Of a stretch of 53,435 nucleotides of DNA, positions 1,444 through 48,748 are shown piece after piece (the first letter of the stretch is position 1; each line of letters starts with the position of its first letter). This DNA is from Coriobacteriia bacterium (lineage in GTDB: Bacteria; Actinomycetota; Coriobacteriia; Coriobacteriales; UBA8131), in contig WRBR01000004.1 in NCBI GenBank assembly GCA_009784425.1, forward strand, positions 1 through 53,435, written 5' to 3'. Position numbers and translations under genes: made by a program. Under the pieces are notes generated by a model, which did not search any database, was not told where the DNA came from, and was given only the letters and a program-made list of their open reading frames with translations.

Positions 1444-3591
1444 ATGTTGGAGAGTTTACCGCTTATTATTGGTTTGGCGGCAGGAATCGTAGCCGTTGTG
1501 TATGCGAGCGCCCTGATTGCTTATCTGGTCAAGATGCCTGCGGGCAACGAGAAGATGCAAAGTATTGCCGGGGCAATCCATGAAGGTGCTATGGCGTTTT
1601 TGAAGCGCCAATACCGCACGGTTGCCATTGTTGCCATTATCATCACCGTAATACTGCTGATTCCCGGCTTTTTTGGCATTATTGGTTTTGGAATCTGGAC
1701 GGCTGTTGGCTTTATTCTCGGCGGCGTAGCATCTGCCGCGGCCGGCTTCATTGGCATGGCCATCTCGGTGCGCGCCAATGTGCGAACGGCTGAGGCCGCC
1801 CAAACAGGGCTGCCCAAGGCGCTCAGAGTTGCCTTTCAGGCAGGAACAGTCACCGGAATGTTTGTCATTGGCCTTGGCATCATCGTAGTTTCTATCATGA
1901 GCTTTTTATACTTGGGAGAAGTTACGCTCTTTGGCCAAACAGCCGGTTATTCTGCGCTGATAGGTCTGGGCTTTGGTGGCTCGCTGATCTCAGTCTTTGC
2001 ACGTCTTGGTGGCGGAATCTTCACTAAGGCTGCAGACGTTGGTGCCGACCTGGTAGGCAAGGTCGAGGCAGGCATACCTGAGGATGACCCCCGCAACCCC
2101 GCCGTTATCGCCGATAACGTAGGTGACAACGTGGGCGACTGCGCCGGCATGGCAGCAGACCTGTTTGAGACCTACGTGGTAACCACCGTTGCCGCTATGC
2201 TGATTGGTATCCTTGCCTTTGGCGAAGCAGCCTTGGGCGTTGCCCTCGGCTTGCCGCTGGCCATTGGTGCTGCTTCTATCGTAGCCTCTGTCATCGGCAC
2301 CGCCTTTGTTAAGATGGGCAAAAACGGCTCCATCATGGGAGCCCTGTACAAGGGTCTTTGGATAGCGGCAATCATTGCTGCCGCCATATTCCTCCCCGTA
2401 TGCTACTGGCTTTTGAATGGCGCTACCGTTATTACGGACTCCATTCTTGCCCCTTCAGACCTCTCATATATTTCGGTTTGGATTTGTGCTGTCATCGGCG
2501 TGCTCTTAACAGCAGGAATGGTGTATGCCACCGACTACTACACGTCATCCGAGAAAAAACCGGTTCACCGTGTTGCCAAGGCATCTGAGACCGGTCATGC
2601 CACCAACATCATCCAAGGCTTAGCAGTAGGCATGGAGGCAACCGCCATTCCCATTATCATGATTATCATTGCTACGCTCGCAAGCTTTTTCTTGGCGGGC
2701 ATCTTTGGCATTGCTATTGCGGCGCTTTCCATGCTGTCAATGGCGGGCATCATTGTGGCGCTTGACTCCTTTGGGCCAGTCACTGATAACGCAGGCGGCA
2801 TCGCCGAGATGAGCGCTCTGCCCGAGAGTGTGCGCGTGAATACCGATGCTCTGGATGCCGTAGGCAACACCACCAAGGCTGTTACCAAGGGTTACGCCAT
2901 TGCCTCTGCGGCGCTGGCTGCCGTGGTGCTGTTCTCTGACTTTATCCATCAGCTTGAGGCGCAAACAGGCGCAGCGTACGCTCTGGACTTTCCCTTGTGG
3001 AGCCCCTATGTGCTCATAGGTCTGTTCATCGGCGGGCTGCTACCCTTCCTCTTTGCCTCGCTTGCCATGACCTCGGTGGGCAAGGCAGCCGGCGGCGTGG
3101 TAGAAGAAGTGCGTCGTCAGTTTAAAGAGATTCCCGGCATCATGGAGGGCACCGGTAAGCCCGACTACGCCAAGTGCGTGGATTTGGTTACCAAGAGCGC
3201 TCTGAGGGAGATGACGCTTCCTGCCATGATTCCCATCGGCGTGCCGATTTTGATCTTGGGCGTTGGCGCCATCTTAAAGGCAGTTGGCTTTGAGGATGCC
3301 TTTATGTTCACCGTATATGTGATGGGCGGTGCCCTGGTGGGAACCATCGTCACCGGCCTGTTCTTGGCTATTTCCATGACCGCCGGCGGCGGCGCATGGG
3401 ATAACGCTAAAAAGCTCATTGAAGAGGGCAAGTTTGGCGGCAAGGGCTCCTTTGCCCACGCGGCCTCGGTAACCGGCGACACCGTCGGCGATCCTTACAA
3501 GGATACCGCCGGCCCCGCTCTCAACCCCATGATTAAGGTCTTTAACATCATGGCATTATTGCTGCTGCCCCTCTTGGTTTTACTTGCGTAA
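1444..3591 (+). CDS. hppA: Membrane-bound proton-translocating pyrophosphatase, K+-independent type
   Basis: Integral membrane enzyme that couples pyrophosphate hydrolysis to cation pumping. The 715 aa and many hydrophobic segments fit the usual 16-helix fold. The catalytic signature [18 protein letters not shown], then [19 protein letters not shown], lies near residues 198-242. A second acidic set ([18 protein letters not shown]) is near the C-terminus. The segment [10 protein letters not shown] (residues 474-483) has Lys478 and Thr481, the pair known to mark K+-independent H+-pumping members; K+-dependent ones have Ala at the first position. An AAGGAAGG ribosome binding site precedes the ATG. 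The gene appears monocistronic, followed by a strong terminator. It would recycle pyrophosphate into proton motive force in an energy-limited anaerobe. Confidence 0.96.
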
Positions 3592-3704: not shown

Positions 3705-5492
3705 ATGGGAATTCTTGCAGCCTACGCTGTTCCGCATCCGCCCCTGCTTATTCCCGGCGTTGGGGATGACAGCAAGCTATCTGTGCAAAAAACCAAAGAG
3801 GCCTTGGAGGAGGCAGCCCGGCGCGCTGCAGAGCTGGGGCCCGAGACACTGGTGATTATCTCGCCTCATGCGCCCATGTATGCAGACGCCTTTCATATAT
3901 CGCCTGGTGTAGGTGCGAGCGGAGACTTTGGCATGTTTGGGGTGAGCGAAGCTGCGTACACCGCGATGTACGATGAGGAGTTTGTATCGCTGCTTGAGGA
4001 GCTGTCGCTCGAAAAGGGCATTTCCTGCACAACGCAGGGGCAAAAGGATACTTCGCTTGATCACGCAACAATGGTGCCCCTTCACTTTTTTGGCAAGGCT
4101 CTCGGCGATGCCGGCGGGGCTGGCGCTGACTATAAAGTTGTGCGCATTGGGCTCAGCGGCCTTGGCTTTGACAAGCACCTTGCCTTTGGCAAGGCGATTG
4201 CCCAGGCAGCCAATGCCCTGGATCGCAAGGTGGCGGTGGTAGCAAGCGGCGACCTTTCACACAAACTATTGGCAAGCGGTCCCTATGGTTTTACGCCTGA
4301 GGGTCCCGAGCTTGACGAGAAGATATGCGCAGCCCTTACAGAGGGTAGCGCGGAGAGCCTCATGGCGATTAGCCCCAGGCTTGCAGATGCTGGCGCGGAG
4401 TGCGGCCTCAGGTCCTTCATCATGATGAGCGGGGCACTCGACGGCCTTAACTATACTTCTGAGCTGCTCTCTTACGAGGGCCCCCTGGGCGTTGGTTATG
4501 CCGTGGCTTCTTATCAGGAAGGCGCTCTGCAGGAGGCGGCGGCTCCGGTTGCTGAGGCAAAAGAAGAAGCGGCTTTGGGCGTTGTGGCTCTTGCGGCAGT
4601 GGGGGCGGCGGCTGTTGATAAGGCTGCTGTTGATAAGGCAGCTGCTGATGAAGCAGTTACAGAAGAAGCAGTTGCAGATGAAGCAGTTGCTGAAGATTCT
4701 GCTGACGATGAAACGGTTGCTGAAGAAGAGGCAGTCACTAAAGACGAAGCGGTTGAAGACGAAGCGGCTGAAGACGAGGAGCCGTCCGAGGAGCCGTCCG
4801 CAGACGATGAAGCGGTTGCTGAAGACGAGACTGCCAAAGAAGAGGAGGCTGTCGACGATGAGGCAGCAGCAGAAGTGCTGGCCCCCGTGCCCGATGCACT
4901 TCTTGAAGATCTTTACTCCACCCCAACGGAATCCCTCCCCGTGGGCTTGGCGCGCAAGGCCCTGCAAGCCTACTTTGACCTGGGCAACACTCGCCCGGCA
5001 CTCGATACCCCGGAGATTCAGGAATTTCTGGAGCTCTACCAACAAGAACCCGGCCTCAAAGAGGAGTACGAAGATCTGGCAAACAGAAAGGCCGGAGTTT
5101 TTGTCAGCATCCACGAAGGGCAAGAGCTGAGGGGCTGCATTGGCACCATAGCGCCCGCCCGGGAATCTGTCTTGGCCGAGATCATCCAAAATGCGGTGAG
5201 CGCAGCGAGGGAAGATCCGCGGTTTTTACAGGTGCAGGCGTATGAACTCGGCGATCTCACCGTTAAGGTAGACATCTTGGGAGAAGCAGAGCAAGTGCGC
5301 GACCGTCAGGAGCTGGACCCCAAGCGTTACGGGGTCATCGTCAGGCGCGGGCACCGACGCGGCCTGCTTTTACCAGACCTTGAAGGTGTCGATACCCCCA
5401 AAAAGCAGATAGAGATAGCGCTCGCCAAAGCGGGCATCCGCGGCAGAGAATCTTACGCGCTTGAGCGCTTTGAAGTGGTGCGTTATACATGA
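3705..5492 (+). CDS. amrB-amrA: AmmeMemoRadiSam protein B-A fusion (MEMO1-like plus AMMECR1 domain)
   Basis: Two-domain fusion. Residues 1-270 are a MEMO1 domain related to class III extradiol dioxygenases, with HPPLLIPGVGDD, SPHAPMYADAF, DHATMVPLHFF and SGDLSHK supplying the likely metal-site histidines and acids. Residues about 390-595 are an AMMECR1 domain with the hallmark LRGCIG and the REDPRF region. They are joined by a 115-residue, highly acidic Ala/Glu/Asp linker (about 4530-4880) built from degenerate repeats. An in-frame TTG lies at 3693, but ATG 3705 has GGAGGT 5-10 nt upstream and is preferred. The stop overlaps the start of the radical SAM gene by 4 nt, so the three parts of the AmmeMemoRadiSam system form one translationally coupled unit. 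The biochemical function of the system is not established. Confidence 0.92.
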   Translation: MGILAAYAVPHPPLLIPGVGDDSKLSVQKTKEALEEAARRAAELGPETLVIISPHAPMYADAFHISPGVGASGDFGMFGVSEAAYTAMYDEEFVSLLEELSLEKGISCTTQGQKDTSLDHATMVPLHFFGKALGDAGGAGADYKVVRIGLSGLGFDKHLAFGKAIAQAANALDRKVAVVASGDLSHKLLASGPYGFTPEGPELDEKICAALTEGSAESLMAISPRLADAGAECGLRSFIMMSGALDGLNYTSELLSYEGPLGVGYAVASYQEGALQEAAAPVAEAKEEAALGVVALAAVGAAAVDKAAVDKAAADEAVTEEAVADEAVAEDSADDETVAEEEAVTKDEAVEDEAAEDEEPSEEPSADDEAVAEDETAKEEEAVDDEAAAEVLAPVPDALLEDLYSTPTESLPVGLARKALQAYFDLGNTRPALDTPEIQEFLELYQQEPGLKEEYEDLANRKAGVFVSIHEGQELRGCIGTIAPARESVLAEIIQNAVSAAREDPRFLQVQAYELGDLTVKVDILGEAEQVRDRQELDPKRYGVIVRRGHRRGLLLPDLEGVDTPKKQIEIALAKAGIRGRESYALERFEVVRYT

Positions 5493-6538
5493 GTCTTGCA
5501 CAGTGTTCCGTGTGTCCCCATGCGTGCAGTCTTGCACAGGACGAGAGGGGAGTGTGCGGAGCCAGGCGAGCTAAAGACGGCGCGGTCATCCCCCTTAATT
5601 ACGGCCGCTGTACATCGCTCGCGCTTGACCCTATTGAAAAGAAGCCGCTGGCGCGCTTTTATCCGGGAAGCACCATCTACTCATACGGCAGCTTTGGCTG
5701 CAACCTCAGCTGCTCCTTCTGCCAAAACTCAGAGATCTCGCAGGTGGTACAGAGAGACGGGGTTGGTGAGACAGAAGGGGACGGTTCATCTGTCTCGCGT
5801 GTGGTACAGAGGGACGGGGTTGGTGTACCAATTTCTGCGAAATTGGTACACCAACCCCGTCCCTCTGTACCACACCAACCCCGTCCCTCTGTACCACCGA
5901 CAAACCGGCCACCCGGACGCAGGTGGGATACGCGCACCATTCATGAAGGCCACCCGGCTTATACCCCGGTGCCAACCAGGTATCTCTCGCCGGCGGAGTT
6001 GGTGCAGCAGGCCTTAGCACTCAAACCCCAGGGCAACATAGGCGTTGCGCTCACCTACAACGAGCCACTTATCAGCCCGGAATATCTGCTGGATGTTGCC
6101 AAGGAGGTCCAAATCGAGGGCCTCAAGCTCGCCGTGGTGACCAACGGCTATGTTACGCCCCAAACGGCTGAGCAAGTTTTCAAAGCAACCGACGCCGCCA
6201 ACATCGACCTCAAGGCATTCAATCAAGACTTCTACACCTCAGTGGGAGCGCCGGCAGGTCTGGCAACCGTTAAGCAGAGCATCCAGATTGCCCTCGCCCA
6301 GGGTTGCCATGTGGAGATTACCACACTGGTAATCCCCGGCCTCAACGACAGCCCGGATGAAATGGCAGCAGAAGCCGCCTGGATTGCCTCGCTCAGCCCA
6401 GACATACCTTTCCACATAAGCAGGTTTCATCCGTCGTACCACATGATGGATCGCCCGCCCACGCCGGAGGACACCGTGCATACCCTGGCGCGCATTGCCA
6501 GGGAACACCTCAATTTCGTCTATATCGGAAATAGGTAA
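5489..6538 (+). CDS. amrS: AmmeMemoRadiSam system radical SAM enzyme, with in-frame palindromic insertion
   Basis: Radical SAM protein partnered with the preceding MEMO-AMMECR1 fusion (ATGA overlap). The N-terminus has family Cys pairs (CSVCPHAC, GVCGAR), then the cluster motif C71-x3-C75-x2-C78 (GCNLSCSFCQN) that binds the SAM-cleaving [4Fe-4S]. The barrel continues with ALTYNEPLI, AVVTNGYV, NIDLKAF and TTLVIPGLND. Directly after the cluster motif, about 50 residues (86-136) are encoded by a mobile palindromic element (5744-5897), and roughly 20 more unusual residues follow before the normal sequence resumes at YLSPAELV. The frame stays open, so the protein may be functional with a disordered loop, but activity is uncertain. 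Apart from the insert, length and motifs fit the family. Confidence 0.9.
   Translation: MSLAQCSVCPHACSLAQDERGVCGARRAKDGAVIPLNYGRCTSLALDPIEKKPLARFYPGSTIYSYGSFGCNLSCSFCQNSEISQVVQRDGVGETEGDGSSVSRVVQRDGVGVPISAKLVHQPRPSVPHQPRPSVPPTNRPPGRRWDTRTIHEGHPAYTPVPTRYLSPAELVQQALALKPQGNIGVALTYNEPLISPEYLLDVAKEVQIEGLKLAVVTNGYVTPQTAEQVFKATDAANIDLKAFNQDFYTSVGAPAGLATVKQSIQIALAQGCHVEITTLVIPGLNDSPDEMAAEAAWIASLSPDIPFHISRFHPSYHMMDRPPTPEDTVHTLARIAREHLNFVYIGNR
5744..5897. mobile_element. Compound palindromic repeat element, in frame within amrS
   Basis: An inner pair of perfect 34-nt arms (5801-5834 and 5840-5873) has a 5-nt loop. An outer 25-nt arm (5744-5768) matches, with one mismatch, the complement of 5873-5897. 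Between the left arms lies a segment starting AGACAGAAGGGGACGGTTCA that recurs at 48225. The forward translation reads QRDGVGETEGDGSSVSR, identical to the copy at 48.2 kb, so both copies sit in the same reading frame. It carries no transposase and resembles protein-embedded palindromic elements such as those known from Rickettsia (analogy only). Confidence 0.85.
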
Positions 6539-28362: not shown

Positions 28363-29282
28363 CAAAGAGAGGCACTCCCACCGGACTAGCTGGCATTCTC
28401 GCTCTTGACAAGCCAGAAGGCATAACCTCACACGATGTGGTTGATGTTGTCAGGCGAGTGACGGGCGAGCGACGCGTGGGCCATGCCGGCACGCTGGATC
28501 CTCTGGCAACCGGCCTCTTGCTGGTGTGCGTGGGGCCTGCGACGCGGCTTAGCGAATACCTCATGGCCGGGAATAAAGCCTACGAAGCCCGCATTTGCTT
28601 TGGCAAAGAAACCACCACCGATGACAGAGAAGGGGAGACTCTGCGCATGGCAGAGTTGCCGCGCGAGCTTGAGGACACAGCGTTTATCACCCAGCTTTTG
28701 CAGTGGATGCCGGGTTCGATGAATCAGCTGCCTCCTGCGTACTCTGCAATCAAGAAAGATGGAGTGGTTGCCTACAAGGCTGCCCGAGAAGGCAAACAGC
28801 TTGAGTTAGAGCCGCGGCGTGTTGAGCTCTTTGAAGCCGAGCTCCTGGCAATAGGAGCCGATTATTGGGATCTGCGACTGGTGGTCTCAAAGGGCTTCTA
28901 CGTGCGCTCCTTTGCCCGCGATCTGGGCAGAGCGCTTGACTCTGCCGCTCACCTCGGCGCACTCCGACGCACTGCCTCCGGCAATACTCGTATCGAACAA
29001 GCCAGCGTTATGCAAATGTCCAGCCTGCCTTTCATCGACCCCGTGGCCGCGCTGGGCTTTCCGTCTGTAGAAGTAAGCGCAGCCGAGGCTCATGGCGTAA
29101 CCAACGGTAAGCCCTTAACGCTAAGACAAGAGAACCGTCCCCCTGTTTCAGCCAGGGGTCTCATCAGCATCGTGCACAAAGATCACTTTCTCGCAATCTA
29201 CGAAACGGTAAGCAAAAGCAGCCTCGCGCAACCTAAAGTCATCCTCCCCGGCGGCATTCTCCGTCCCTCTCTCTCACACTAA
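28359..29282 (+). CDS. truB: tRNA pseudouridine(55) synthase
   Basis: A 307-aa enzyme that isomerises U55 in tRNA. It has GILALDKPEGITSHDVV, the catalytic aspartate in HAGTLDPLATG, and YEARICFG. ATGA overlap with nrnA. The C-terminal part contains RQENRPPVS, encoded by a short sequence (29123-29153) resembling half of the palindromic elements at 5.7 and 48.2 kb. The stop codon overlaps by 2 nt the stop of the convergent P-type ATPase gene, so no terminator separates them. Confidence 0.94.
   Translation: MTKRGTPTGLAGILALDKPEGITSHDVVDVVRRVTGERRVGHAGTLDPLATGLLLVCVGPATRLSEYLMAGNKAYEARICFGKETTTDDREGETLRMAELPRELEDTAFITQLLQWMPGSMNQLPPAYSAIKKDGVVAYKAAREGKQLELEPRRVELFEAELLAIGADYWDLRLVVSKGFYVRSFARDLGRALDSAAHLGALRRTASGNTRIEQASVMQMSSLPFIDPVAALGFPSVEVSAAEAHGVTNGKPLTLRQENRPPVSARGLISIVHKDHFLAIYETVSKSSLAQPKVILPGGILRPSLSH
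29123..29153. mobile_element. Probable remnant of the palindromic element inside truB
   Basis: The AGACAAGAGAACCGTCCCC stretch and the following CTGTTTCAGCC match the right-arm sequence of the 48.2-kb element with a few differences and one or two missing bases. It is read in the same frame (RQxNRP). About 30 nt survive; a chance match is possible but unlikely. Confidence 0.5.
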
Positions 29283-33394: not shown

Positions 33395-33504
33395 AGTTCC
33401 TGCCGCGTTTGCACGCAAAAAGACGATTATTGCGCAGATTTAGTCCAAAATGGCTCTGAATTGGCCTCAAAACCGTCTTTTTGCGTGCAAACGCGGCAGG
33501 AACT
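33395..33504. mobile_element. MITE-like perfect 31-bp inverted repeat with 48-nt centre
   Basis: The arms 33395-33425 (AGTTCCTGCCGCGTTTGCAC...) and 33474-33504 are exact reverse complements over 31 nt. They sit between the convergent DUF1015 and map genes. There is no transposase and no visible target duplication. It could form a long cruciform or RNA hairpin and act as a bidirectional terminator, but length and perfection suggest a non-autonomous repetitive element. Confidence 0.7.
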
Positions 33505-47058: not shown

Positions 47059-47535
47059 ATGACAACCCAGATACTGATACTCTGCATCGGCAACATCCTC
47101 ATGCTGGACGAGGGGGTAGGACCGCGCATTGCCCAAGAGCTCAACGAGCATCATGAGTTCCCTCCCAATGTACAGGTCCTCGACCGCGGTTGCATGGGCA
47201 TGTCCCTCATCGCCGATTTCAAAAGCGCAGACAAAGTACTGGTAGTAGACGCGGTGGACAATACCGGCTACGAGCCGGGAACCATTGTGACCTTCAGGCC
47301 TGAAGACATTGCCCCCTACCAAGCCTTCCACGGCGCACACGACACAAAACTCATCGATGTGTTACAGGCACTTGCGCTTCTAGGATATGAACCGGAGGTA
47401 GACTGCCTGGGTGTTCAAGTTGAGAACATGCACCCGGAAAACCTCTGCATAGGACTAACACCCTCAGTAGAAGCCGCCGTGCCGACAATGGTGCAATCCT
47501 GCCTGGACTACATCAAAGTAATGGGAGCGCCATAA
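47059..47535 (+). CDS. hyaD: [NiFe] hydrogenase maturation protease
   Basis: A 158-aa endopeptidase of the HyaD/HybD/HycI type that trims the C-terminal peptide of the large subunit after nickel insertion. GNILMLDEGVG, DRGCMGMSL, VVDAVDN and HGAHDTKLID provide the Ni-sensing Glu, Asp and His. The target is presumably HyaB at 38.9 kb, whose predicted 20-residue tail needs removal. The molybdoenzyme genes separate it from hyaABC. The nth start overlaps its stop by one base. Confidence 0.92.
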   Translation: MTTQILILCIGNILMLDEGVGPRIAQELNEHHEFPPNVQVLDRGCMGMSLIADFKSADKVLVVDAVDNTGYEPGTIVTFRPEDIAPYQAFHGAHDTKLIDVLQALALLGYEPEVDCLGVQVENMHPENLCIGLTPSVEAAVPTMVQSCLDYIKVMGAP

Positions 47536-48194
47536 TGCCCCGAGAGTCGCTTGCATCCAAACGCAGCCGCGCCACTGAGCTACTCAATGGCCTAGCCTCG
47601 ATATATCCAGGTGAACAGAAGGGTCTGCTGCAACACAGCAACCCCTTCACGCTACTCATCGCCGTGATACTCAGCGCCCAAACCACAGATGCCGCCGTTG
47701 ACAAGGTAACCCCTGAGCTCTTCAAAAGATGGCCCAGCCCTGAGACCTATGCCTCAGCTGATCCCAGCGAGGTGGCCACGGTCATCCGCTCCATTGGATT
47801 CTATAACGCAAAGTCACGAAACACCGTACTCTGCGCCCAGAGGATCCTCACTGACTTTGGCGGCGAGGTGCCGAGCACGATGGAGGAGCTCACGAGCCTC
47901 CCCGGAGTAGGCCGCAAAACAGCCAACATAGTCTTGAACTGTGCATTCGGGAGAGCTGAAGGCATTGCCGTGGACACCCACGTTTTCCGGATTGTTCATC
48001 GTTGGAAGCTGTCTTCTGCAGACGAGCCGTCAAAGGTTGAGCAAGACCTACTCAAAGTGATTGCGCCTGAGCGCTGGAGCATGGTCAACCACAGCCTGGT
48101 GCTGTTTGGCCGAGAGTACTGCATGGCACGCCGACCGAGTTGTGCCACGTGCCCCCTCAACAACCTCTGCCCAAGTGCGATAATACAACCATGA
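47535..48194 (+). CDS. nth: Endonuclease III
   Basis: A 219-aa DNA glycosylase/AP lyase for oxidised pyrimidines. The helix-hairpin-helix LPGVGRKTANIVL is followed by the catalytic Asp in VDTHVFR; the lysine in the SAQTTDAAVDKVTP region precedes them. The C-terminal C-x6-C-x2-C-x5-C motif (CMARRPSCATCPLNNLC) binds a [4Fe-4S] cluster. The stop overlaps the next ATG (ATGA). Confidence 0.95.
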   Translation: MPRESLASKRSRATELLNGLASIYPGEQKGLLQHSNPFTLLIAVILSAQTTDAAVDKVTPELFKRWPSPETYASADPSEVATVIRSIGFYNAKSRNTVLCAQRILTDFGGEVPSTMEELTSLPGVGRKTANIVLNCAFGRAEGIAVDTHVFRIVHRWKLSSADEPSKVEQDLLKVIAPERWSMVNHSLVLFGREYCMARRPSCATCPLNNLCPSAIIQP

Positions 48195-48748
48195 ATGATG
48201 TGGAACAGAGGGACGGGGTTGGTGAGACAGAAGGGGACGGTTCATCTGTCTCGCGTACCCCAGCGAGACAGATGAACCGTCCCCTTCTGTCTCACCAACC
48301 CCGTCCCTCTGTTCCAGACCCGGAATCTTCTCCCCAGGCTTCTGCCCCAGAGCCAGAAGAAATCGACTTCAGCGGTCTACCCAAGTACAACCTCGGTGCC
48401 CTCTTCATGCCAGCAGTCTGGGGGCCGGCGCATGGGCAGTGGATCAGCATCCTCTTCTACCCCCTCTGGCTCTTTGCCGACACCAGCATCACCAACGCGG
48501 TGCTCTTCGGCGGCTTCACCTACATCCTGGCTGCCTCAGTAATCATAGGAACCGCCGCACTCACCATCTTCTACGCCCGCACCGTAGGCTACAAAGCATA
48601 CGCACGCGTTGCCCACAAAGTCACCAAGGAGCAGTACCTCAAAAGCCAACGCAAATGGACAGTGATAAGCATACTCATCGCCATCGTCTTCGCTGCGTTT
48701 GCCACTTGGTACAACCTCACCATCCGCCTCCCGCAAGGCCTGAGCTGA
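48191..48748 (+). CDS. Small membrane protein whose N-terminus is encoded by a palindromic element
   Basis: A 185-aa protein of unknown function. Residues 4-42 are encoded by the 54-bp inverted repeat at 48201-48316 and are hydrophilic. A Pro/Glu-rich spacer is followed by YNLGALFMPAVWGPAHGQWI and three hydrophobic segments (about residues 76-96, 98-122 and 155-175). The native N-terminus before the insertion may have been very short. Its start overlaps the nth stop by 4 nt, which would couple the two genes. I do not recognise the family, although the opening of the membrane region resembles other small inner-membrane proteins that start with a conserved N-x-G-A-x-x-x-P-x-x-W-G pattern. Confidence 0.7.
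   Translation: MNDVEQRDGVGETEGDGSSVSRTPARQMNRPLLSHQPRPSVPDPESSPQASAPEPEEIDFSGLPKYNLGALFMPAVWGPAHGQWISILFYPLWLFADTSITNAVLFGGFTYILAASVIIGTAALTIFYARTVGYKAYARVAHKVTKEQYLKSQRKWTVISILIAIVFAAFATWYNLTIRLPQGLS
48201..48316. mobile_element. Perfect 54-bp palindromic element (8-nt loop) in a coding sequence
   Basis: The arms 48201-48254 and 48263-48316 are exact reverse complements. They contain the same modules as the 5.7-kb copy (GGGACGGGGTTGGTG, then AGACAGAAGGGGACGGTTCA) and are read in the same frame (QRDGVGETEGDGSSVSR, then RQMNRPLLSHQPRPSVP). Confidence 0.9.

Follow-up and report, generated by a model that had tools for sequence, protein, structure and literature searches.

A GGGAC-loop palindrome found in frame within genes of a Coriobacteriia bacterium is probably a REP/REPIN-like element moved by a Y1 transposase

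Most descriptions of coding palindromes come from Rickettsiales and from scattered REP-rich bacteria. Several species are known to carry in-frame REPs (PMC3733652), and for the Rickettsia coding palindromes one host enzyme has been shown to be active (PMC2229807). Di Nocera 2013 described the TIRtrons, in which a Y1 transposase, the TIRYT, is flanked by inverted repeats sharing GGGGWSAS (PMC3733652). Quentin 2018 found no REP-like sequence near the genes of TnpA-Y1 subclass 2.1 and tentatively equated this subclass with the TIRYTs (PMC6006769).

The 53,435-nucleotide stretch of Coriobacteriia DNA analyzed here, referred to as the window, carries two copies of a palindromic element (Table 1). 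Inverted-repeat computation (repeat I1) confirmed the perfect 54-nt arms and 8-nt loop given for positions 48201-48316 in a preliminary description of this DNA, the arms being 100% complementary. The reading frame is open through the element, which places it in frame inside a gene as had been proposed, and the peptide QRDGVGETEGDGSSVSR is present both here and in the copy within ORF 5489-6538. The two copies share 96% identity across 57 nt. Each arm is a composite of an outer unit A and a complete inner hairpin B, two units that have the loop core GGGACGG in common, and the unit A stem TGGAACA on the 48201 side pairs with TGTTCCA at 48310-48316. These nested hairpins, like the linked transposase discussed below, were absent from the preliminary description. 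A search for the 48.2-kb copy in plasmids, phages and Rfam gave no match.

Table 1. Coordinates of the two palindrome copies in the window, their component units and the surrounding genes
Feature	Position	Strand	Remarks
Radical SAM protein, host of the 5.7-kb copy	5489..6538	+	Pfam Radical_SAM; resembles the AmmeMemoRadiSam-system family
First copy, made up of A, B and additional A units	5745..5898	+	In frame; the host-protein linker at this site varies in length
nth (endonuclease III), upstream neighbor	47535..48194	+	Pfam HhH-GPD, EndIII_4Fe-2S
Conserved membrane protein, 185 aa, host of the 48.2-kb element	48191..48748	+	Orthologues in ~20 relatives
Palindrome left arm	48201..48254	+	Perfect inverted repeat of 48263-48316
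Outer unit A, TGGAACAGAGGGACGGGGTTGGTG	48201..48224	+	24 nt = 8 codons, read from sequence
Inner unit B hairpin, GAGACAGA-AGGGGACGGTTCA-TCTGTCTC	48224..48252	+	Sequence and hairpin tally
8-nt loop GTACCCCA	48255..48262	.	Between the arms
Palindrome right arm	48263..48316	-	B' 48265-48293 and A' 48293-48316

The 48.2-kb element occupies codons 4-42 of the membrane-protein gene, with the left arm (codons 4-22) at the extreme N-terminus. The ~20 orthologues align only from about residue 44-60 onward and have variable N-termini. Because the left arm is extreme N-terminal and an in-frame ATG lies at 48272 inside the right arm, the certain coding need is limited to the right arm. This position, together with a predicted RNA hairpin of -121 kcal/mol and the fact that N-terminal REPs are sometimes misannotated as coding (PMC3733652), would suit an untranslated RNA or DNA hairpin leader, serving as a REP regulator or mRNA stabilizer, with the gene starting inside or after the palindrome. 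We regard such a leader as unlikely. With a standard start, at least most of the right arm must be coding, as no ATG, GTG or TTG separates the palindrome from the conserved domain, and a leader fails to explain the mid-gene copies in CysS, GlyQS, PriA and PcrA described below. The longest ORF, 48140-48748, begins with TTG; the ATG at 48191 is more likely to be the start of the gene, as it overlaps the nth stop (ATGA) and the N-terminal MNDV that it gives corresponds to MNEI in the orthologue from G004, a sister genome that also keeps the order of nth and the membrane-protein gene (L118).

In the radical SAM protein, the 5.7-kb insert sits after the CxxxCxxC motif (FCQNSEIS), at a site where orthologues hold 0 to ~60 residues. 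The radical SAM gene of the sister genome G001 (L107 / L202) carries a different in-frame insert of ~40 aa, located elsewhere and lacking the GGGAC core.

The host draft genome (G000) comprises 2.0 Mb in 146 contigs and is 86% complete. Allowing at most one mismatch, the unit A core GGGACGGGGTTGGTG gave 514 matches in the draft against one for a reversed-pattern control, and the unit B core GGGACGGTTCNNNTGTC gave 50 against none, numbers far from chance. Stretches totaling 1.13 Mb (56% of the assembly) were sampled for block analysis and contained 110 A blocks with 302 cores, which extrapolates to ~195 blocks in the whole assembly. The commonest form in this sample, found in 80 of the 110 blocks, is a forward-then-inverted palindrome. 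Inner arms are 98% identical within an element, 57 of 67 being perfect, against 84% between elements, which indicates that arms are linked or homogenized as a rule. The perfect arms of the 48.2-kb copy, previously taken to imply recent insertion or gene conversion, are thus not peculiar to it and lose that meaning. At the level of single cores, a stem of 5 bp or longer is formed at 76 of 179 GGGAC[AG]G sites compared to 6-11% for scrambled cores, and the hairpins of this GGGAC-loop type have stems of 6-11 bp and loops of ~11-16 nt. With its arms linked in this way, the element behaves like a REPIN, a unit of two hairpins. For the A family of this genome, covariation of the stems was considered and discarded: the outer long arms match, but mispairing is common in the local hairpin (TGGAACA with TGTACCA).

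Four other genomes of the genus gave 4-34 matches each, mostly to the variant GGGACGGGGCTGGTG, and elsewhere in the family and order core counts stayed at the control level. Several contigs of the 146-contig draft end in these repeats, as an assembly or binning artefact might produce; however, the in-gene copies have unique flanks on both sides and frames open throughout, and with variants present in the four related genomes an artefact is extremely improbable. Within the window, a lone B-type core, GGGACGGTTCTCTTGTC, lies on the minus strand at 29125-29141 near a gene boundary. A separate inverted repeat at 33395-33504, between convergent genes, has 49-nt arms (84% complementary) and a 12-nt spacer; its sequence is unrelated to the GGGAC family, and it is perhaps a two-way terminator or another repeat.

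In order to call copies as lying inside genes, codon statistics on both flanks or comparison with orthologues were used, and 90 blocks had enough flank for this assessment. Sixteen of them (about a sixth) are in frame within genes and most blocks are intergenic. The hosts are CysS, GlyQS, RimM, PriA, Mfd, TatD, DnaX, PcrA/UvrD, AroE-AroK, fumarase, RsgA, an M20 peptidase, an alpha-amylase/GH77 fusion, a thioredoxin-reductase-like protein and both window genes. Called genes make up 87% of the sequence (first 795 kb) and are therefore strongly under-used as sites, which means that most in-gene insertions must be lost. Pfam placement showed that the inserts often lie between domains or in loops: between the catalytic and DALR domains of CysS, at the alpha/beta junction of GlyQS, at the end of the N-terminal domain of RimM and between both helicase halves of PriA. 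Alignments to solved PcrA and PriA structures gap at the insert, relatives vary in linker length at the insert positions, and PriA of a sister genome (L252) presents a clean empty site. Some genes hold two inserts, the second being N-terminal in PriA (L147:14236-14311) and near the C-terminus in PcrA/UvrD (L154:about 3245-3395). CysS and GlyQS were each found once in the genome and are essential, so these proteins are very probably made with the inserted peptide. We infer that the in-gene inserts are translated.

Replication and repair genes recur as hosts (PriA, Mfd, DnaX and PcrA), and such genes have also been reported as recurrent hosts in other REP-rich species. An RNase H-QueD fusion (L262) carries a B-type palindrome in its linker; the fusion is present in relatives and predates the insert. 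The palindrome was also considered as the creator of the RNase H-QueD and GlyQ-GlyS fusions and rejected, since relatives have both fusions too. Sister genomes contain few copies and no convincing in-gene ones, which leaves a single genome as the basis for the coding habit.

Use of the same phase, first noted for the two window copies, proved to be general, the first core being read as VxQRDGVG, or as a near variant of it such as VEQGDGVS, in 15 of the 16 in-gene copies. All three phases are open in nine of the copies, of which eight use the VxQRDGVG phase (~0.001 under equal phases). The phase bias rests on these nine fully open cases, and as neither window copy is among them they provide an independent test of the same-phase idea. 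False in-gene calls at L141, L156 and L211 (a 17-aa frame) were dropped; with L211 included, the count is 8 of 10 (P = 0.0034). Blocks with internal stops lie mostly at gene edges and show mixed phases. Block length modulo 3 was examined as a sign of frame selection and proved too weak (10/15 in genes versus 14/35 elsewhere), and the sister species, in which no genuine in-gene copies were found, gave no second test of the bias.

The preliminary description had suggested that the element was selected, or designed, to contain an open frame. However, the majority of copies are intergenic, and these often lack an open frame in one, two or even every phase, so that no reading frame is being preserved in the element as such. 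A filter on the insertions that host genes tolerate, the simplest reading, is enough to explain the phase. In the favored phase, VxQRDGVG and its right-arm partners are hydrophilic and Trp-free; the other phases give WYRGTGLV or GTEGRGWC. It had also been held that copies found almost only in intergenic DNA, with random phase when in genes, would make the two window cases coincidental; the copies are indeed mostly intergenic, but their phase within genes is clearly non-random.

Repeated use of one phase, and the presence of some inserts where domains or fused proteins meet (several cases, namely AroE-AroK, GlyQ-GlyS and RNase H-QueD), could also be read as domestication of the inserts as beneficial linkers under positive selection. 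We consider this very unlikely, given that relatives have the same fusions with other linkers of similar length in place of the element, that insert length and copy number differ from gene to gene, and that sister species manage without the inserts. A possible though doubtful alternative is that the phase bias reflects an insertion preference of the transposase, for a target or codon context, and not tolerance of the peptide. The palindrome runs at least 5 bp into locus-specific flanks in 17 of 54 elements, against 2.3% in a shuffled control, and extensions such as gggact|agtccc in aroE-aroK and gctgcttt|aaagcagc in dnaX hint at a hairpin-like target. However, some of these extensions are merely neighboring repeat units, and the in-gene sites share no visible target sequence and cluster at linkers of differing composition. 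Palindromes that run on into locus-specific flanks were also seen at L069:18210-18279, L153:8869-8945 and L214:1836-1910; such continuation looks as if the element had landed in a hairpin tip or the flank had been copied by fold-back.

The G000 genome contains only one Y1_Tnp gene. Its 258-aa product scores above the PF01797 cut-off and has intact HUH (NHVHL) and YIHxNP motifs, and residues H60, H62 and Y120 are invariant in the Y1_Tnp alignment A1. tgacaaGGGGACGGGGCGTttgtca lies upstream of the gene, and downstream the start of an inverted copy is followed by the contig end. The orthologue in G004 (86% identical) has this same GGGGACGG-loop hairpin, in identical inverted copies, on both sides. 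The transposase-flanking hairpin occurs in 15 exact copies in the G000 sample, one beside the transposase and 14 dispersed. This hairpin, TGACAA-GGGGACGGGGCGT-TTGTCA, differs in its stem from the abundant A family. Family-A-type cores lie on both sides of a second RAYT in G004, those downstream at a distance of 12 bp, and judging from these neighbors the lineage of this RAYT is the best candidate mover of the A family. No second RAYT was found in the 86% complete G000 assembly, perhaps due to that incompleteness.

A wider survey covered 80 RAYT homologues from named genomes, mostly Bacillota with a few Coriobacteriia. Hairpins with GGGGAC/GGGACNG loops were present within 250 bp of 44 of the 80, against 36 of 805 in the control, and 59 of 67 RAYT-adjacent hairpins are in an inverted flanking arrangement. 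Stems vary between genomes while the loop stays GGGGACGGTTCT or similar. A search of the C-terminal extension gave weak sub-threshold HTH matches in several homologues and none in the G000 protein. Scores of 46 and 54 bits against the NCBIfam REP-associated tyrosine transposase model NF047646 (cut-off 80) suggest that the transposase is related to that family but outside its core. By length, motifs and repeats, the transposases fit the little-studied TIRYT / TnpA-Y1 subclass 2.1, which is said to correspond largely to RAYT group 1 of Bertels 2017. Neither a target-site duplication nor a new transposition event was seen.

Taken together, the palindrome is probably a miniature mobile element of REP/REPIN-like nature and of a GGGAC-loop type, some insertions of which are tolerated in genes. 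It would be built from short hairpins, joined head to head, in which the GGGGAC[GA]G loop core is constant and the stem varies by family or genome. Its most likely mover is a RAYT-like HUH/Y1 transposase of the TIRYT / subclass 2.1 kind that acts in trans on the single-stranded hairpin. At 48.2 kb it would have landed in the N-terminal coding region of the small membrane protein, and at 5.7 kb in the variable linker of the radical SAM protein. Few stop codons and an A unit of 24 nt (8 codons) may allow some insertions to keep a gene readable, and these would be retained in proteins that can accommodate a flexible insert. The favored phase would pass such a filter because it yields hydrophilic, Trp-free peptides (VxQRDGVG ... 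TPTPSL or HQPRPSVP) and not WYRGTGLV or GTEGRGWC. The broader proposal, that constant-loop, free-stem GGGGAC[GA]G hairpins are a general substrate of TIRYT / subclass 2.1 transposases in Bacillota and Coriobacteriia, and in this lineage form protein-coding palindromes, is one that we favor only slightly.

The likeness to Rickettsia palindromic elements drawn in the preliminary description is apt as to the type of insertion, given the 16 in-frame copies in genes. Both are palindromes of ~100-150 bp lying in frame in conserved genes and apparently leaving the protein working. However, the present element belongs to another phylum and is linked to a Y1 transposase, and according to the preliminary description its sequence is unrelated to theirs. 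The CGTC REPs, including Rickettsia RPE-4/RPE-6, resemble it in that CCGTCCC is read on the reverse strand and in-gene copies are known (PMC3733652). Here, however, CGTC lies in a loop of ~11-16 nt and is not an unpaired end tag on a hairpin with an 8-9 bp stem and a 4-5 nt loop, and a transposase is linked whereas none has been reported for the CGTC REPs (PMC3733652). With the GTAG REPIN/BIME elements of E. coli and Pseudomonas the element shares two inverted hairpins, a linked Y1 transposase, many copies and a mainly intergenic location; it differs in having the loop as its conserved part and no GTAG or GTGG at the foot, the RAYT-flanking feet being GAGG, CAGG, GGGT and others.

The TIRYT system is similar in its Y1 transposase of ~250 aa and inverted flanking repeats, which are also dispersed and found in dimers and clusters. 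The consensus GGGGWSAS is fully matched by GGGGACAG and by GGGGACGG at 7 of 8 positions. The reported TIR families are moderately abundant, whereas the repeats here number in the hundreds, are hairpins whose loop is constant and whose stem varies, and also lie in frame inside genes. Relative to the open-licence literature, a loop-tagged hairpin as the partner of TIRYT / subclass 2.1 transposases appears to be new, as does large-scale, phase-biased in-gene use in this lineage. The comparison suggests that one of the largest Y1 subclasses, reported to be without REP-like partners, would have loop-marked ones; a tag in the loop and not at the foot would explain why GTAG-based searches missed them. 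If this is true, RPE-like coding repeats gain a transposase, and as the coding-palindrome habit comes here with both a candidate transposase and a recognizable tag, the question of how such repeats enter genes becomes testable.
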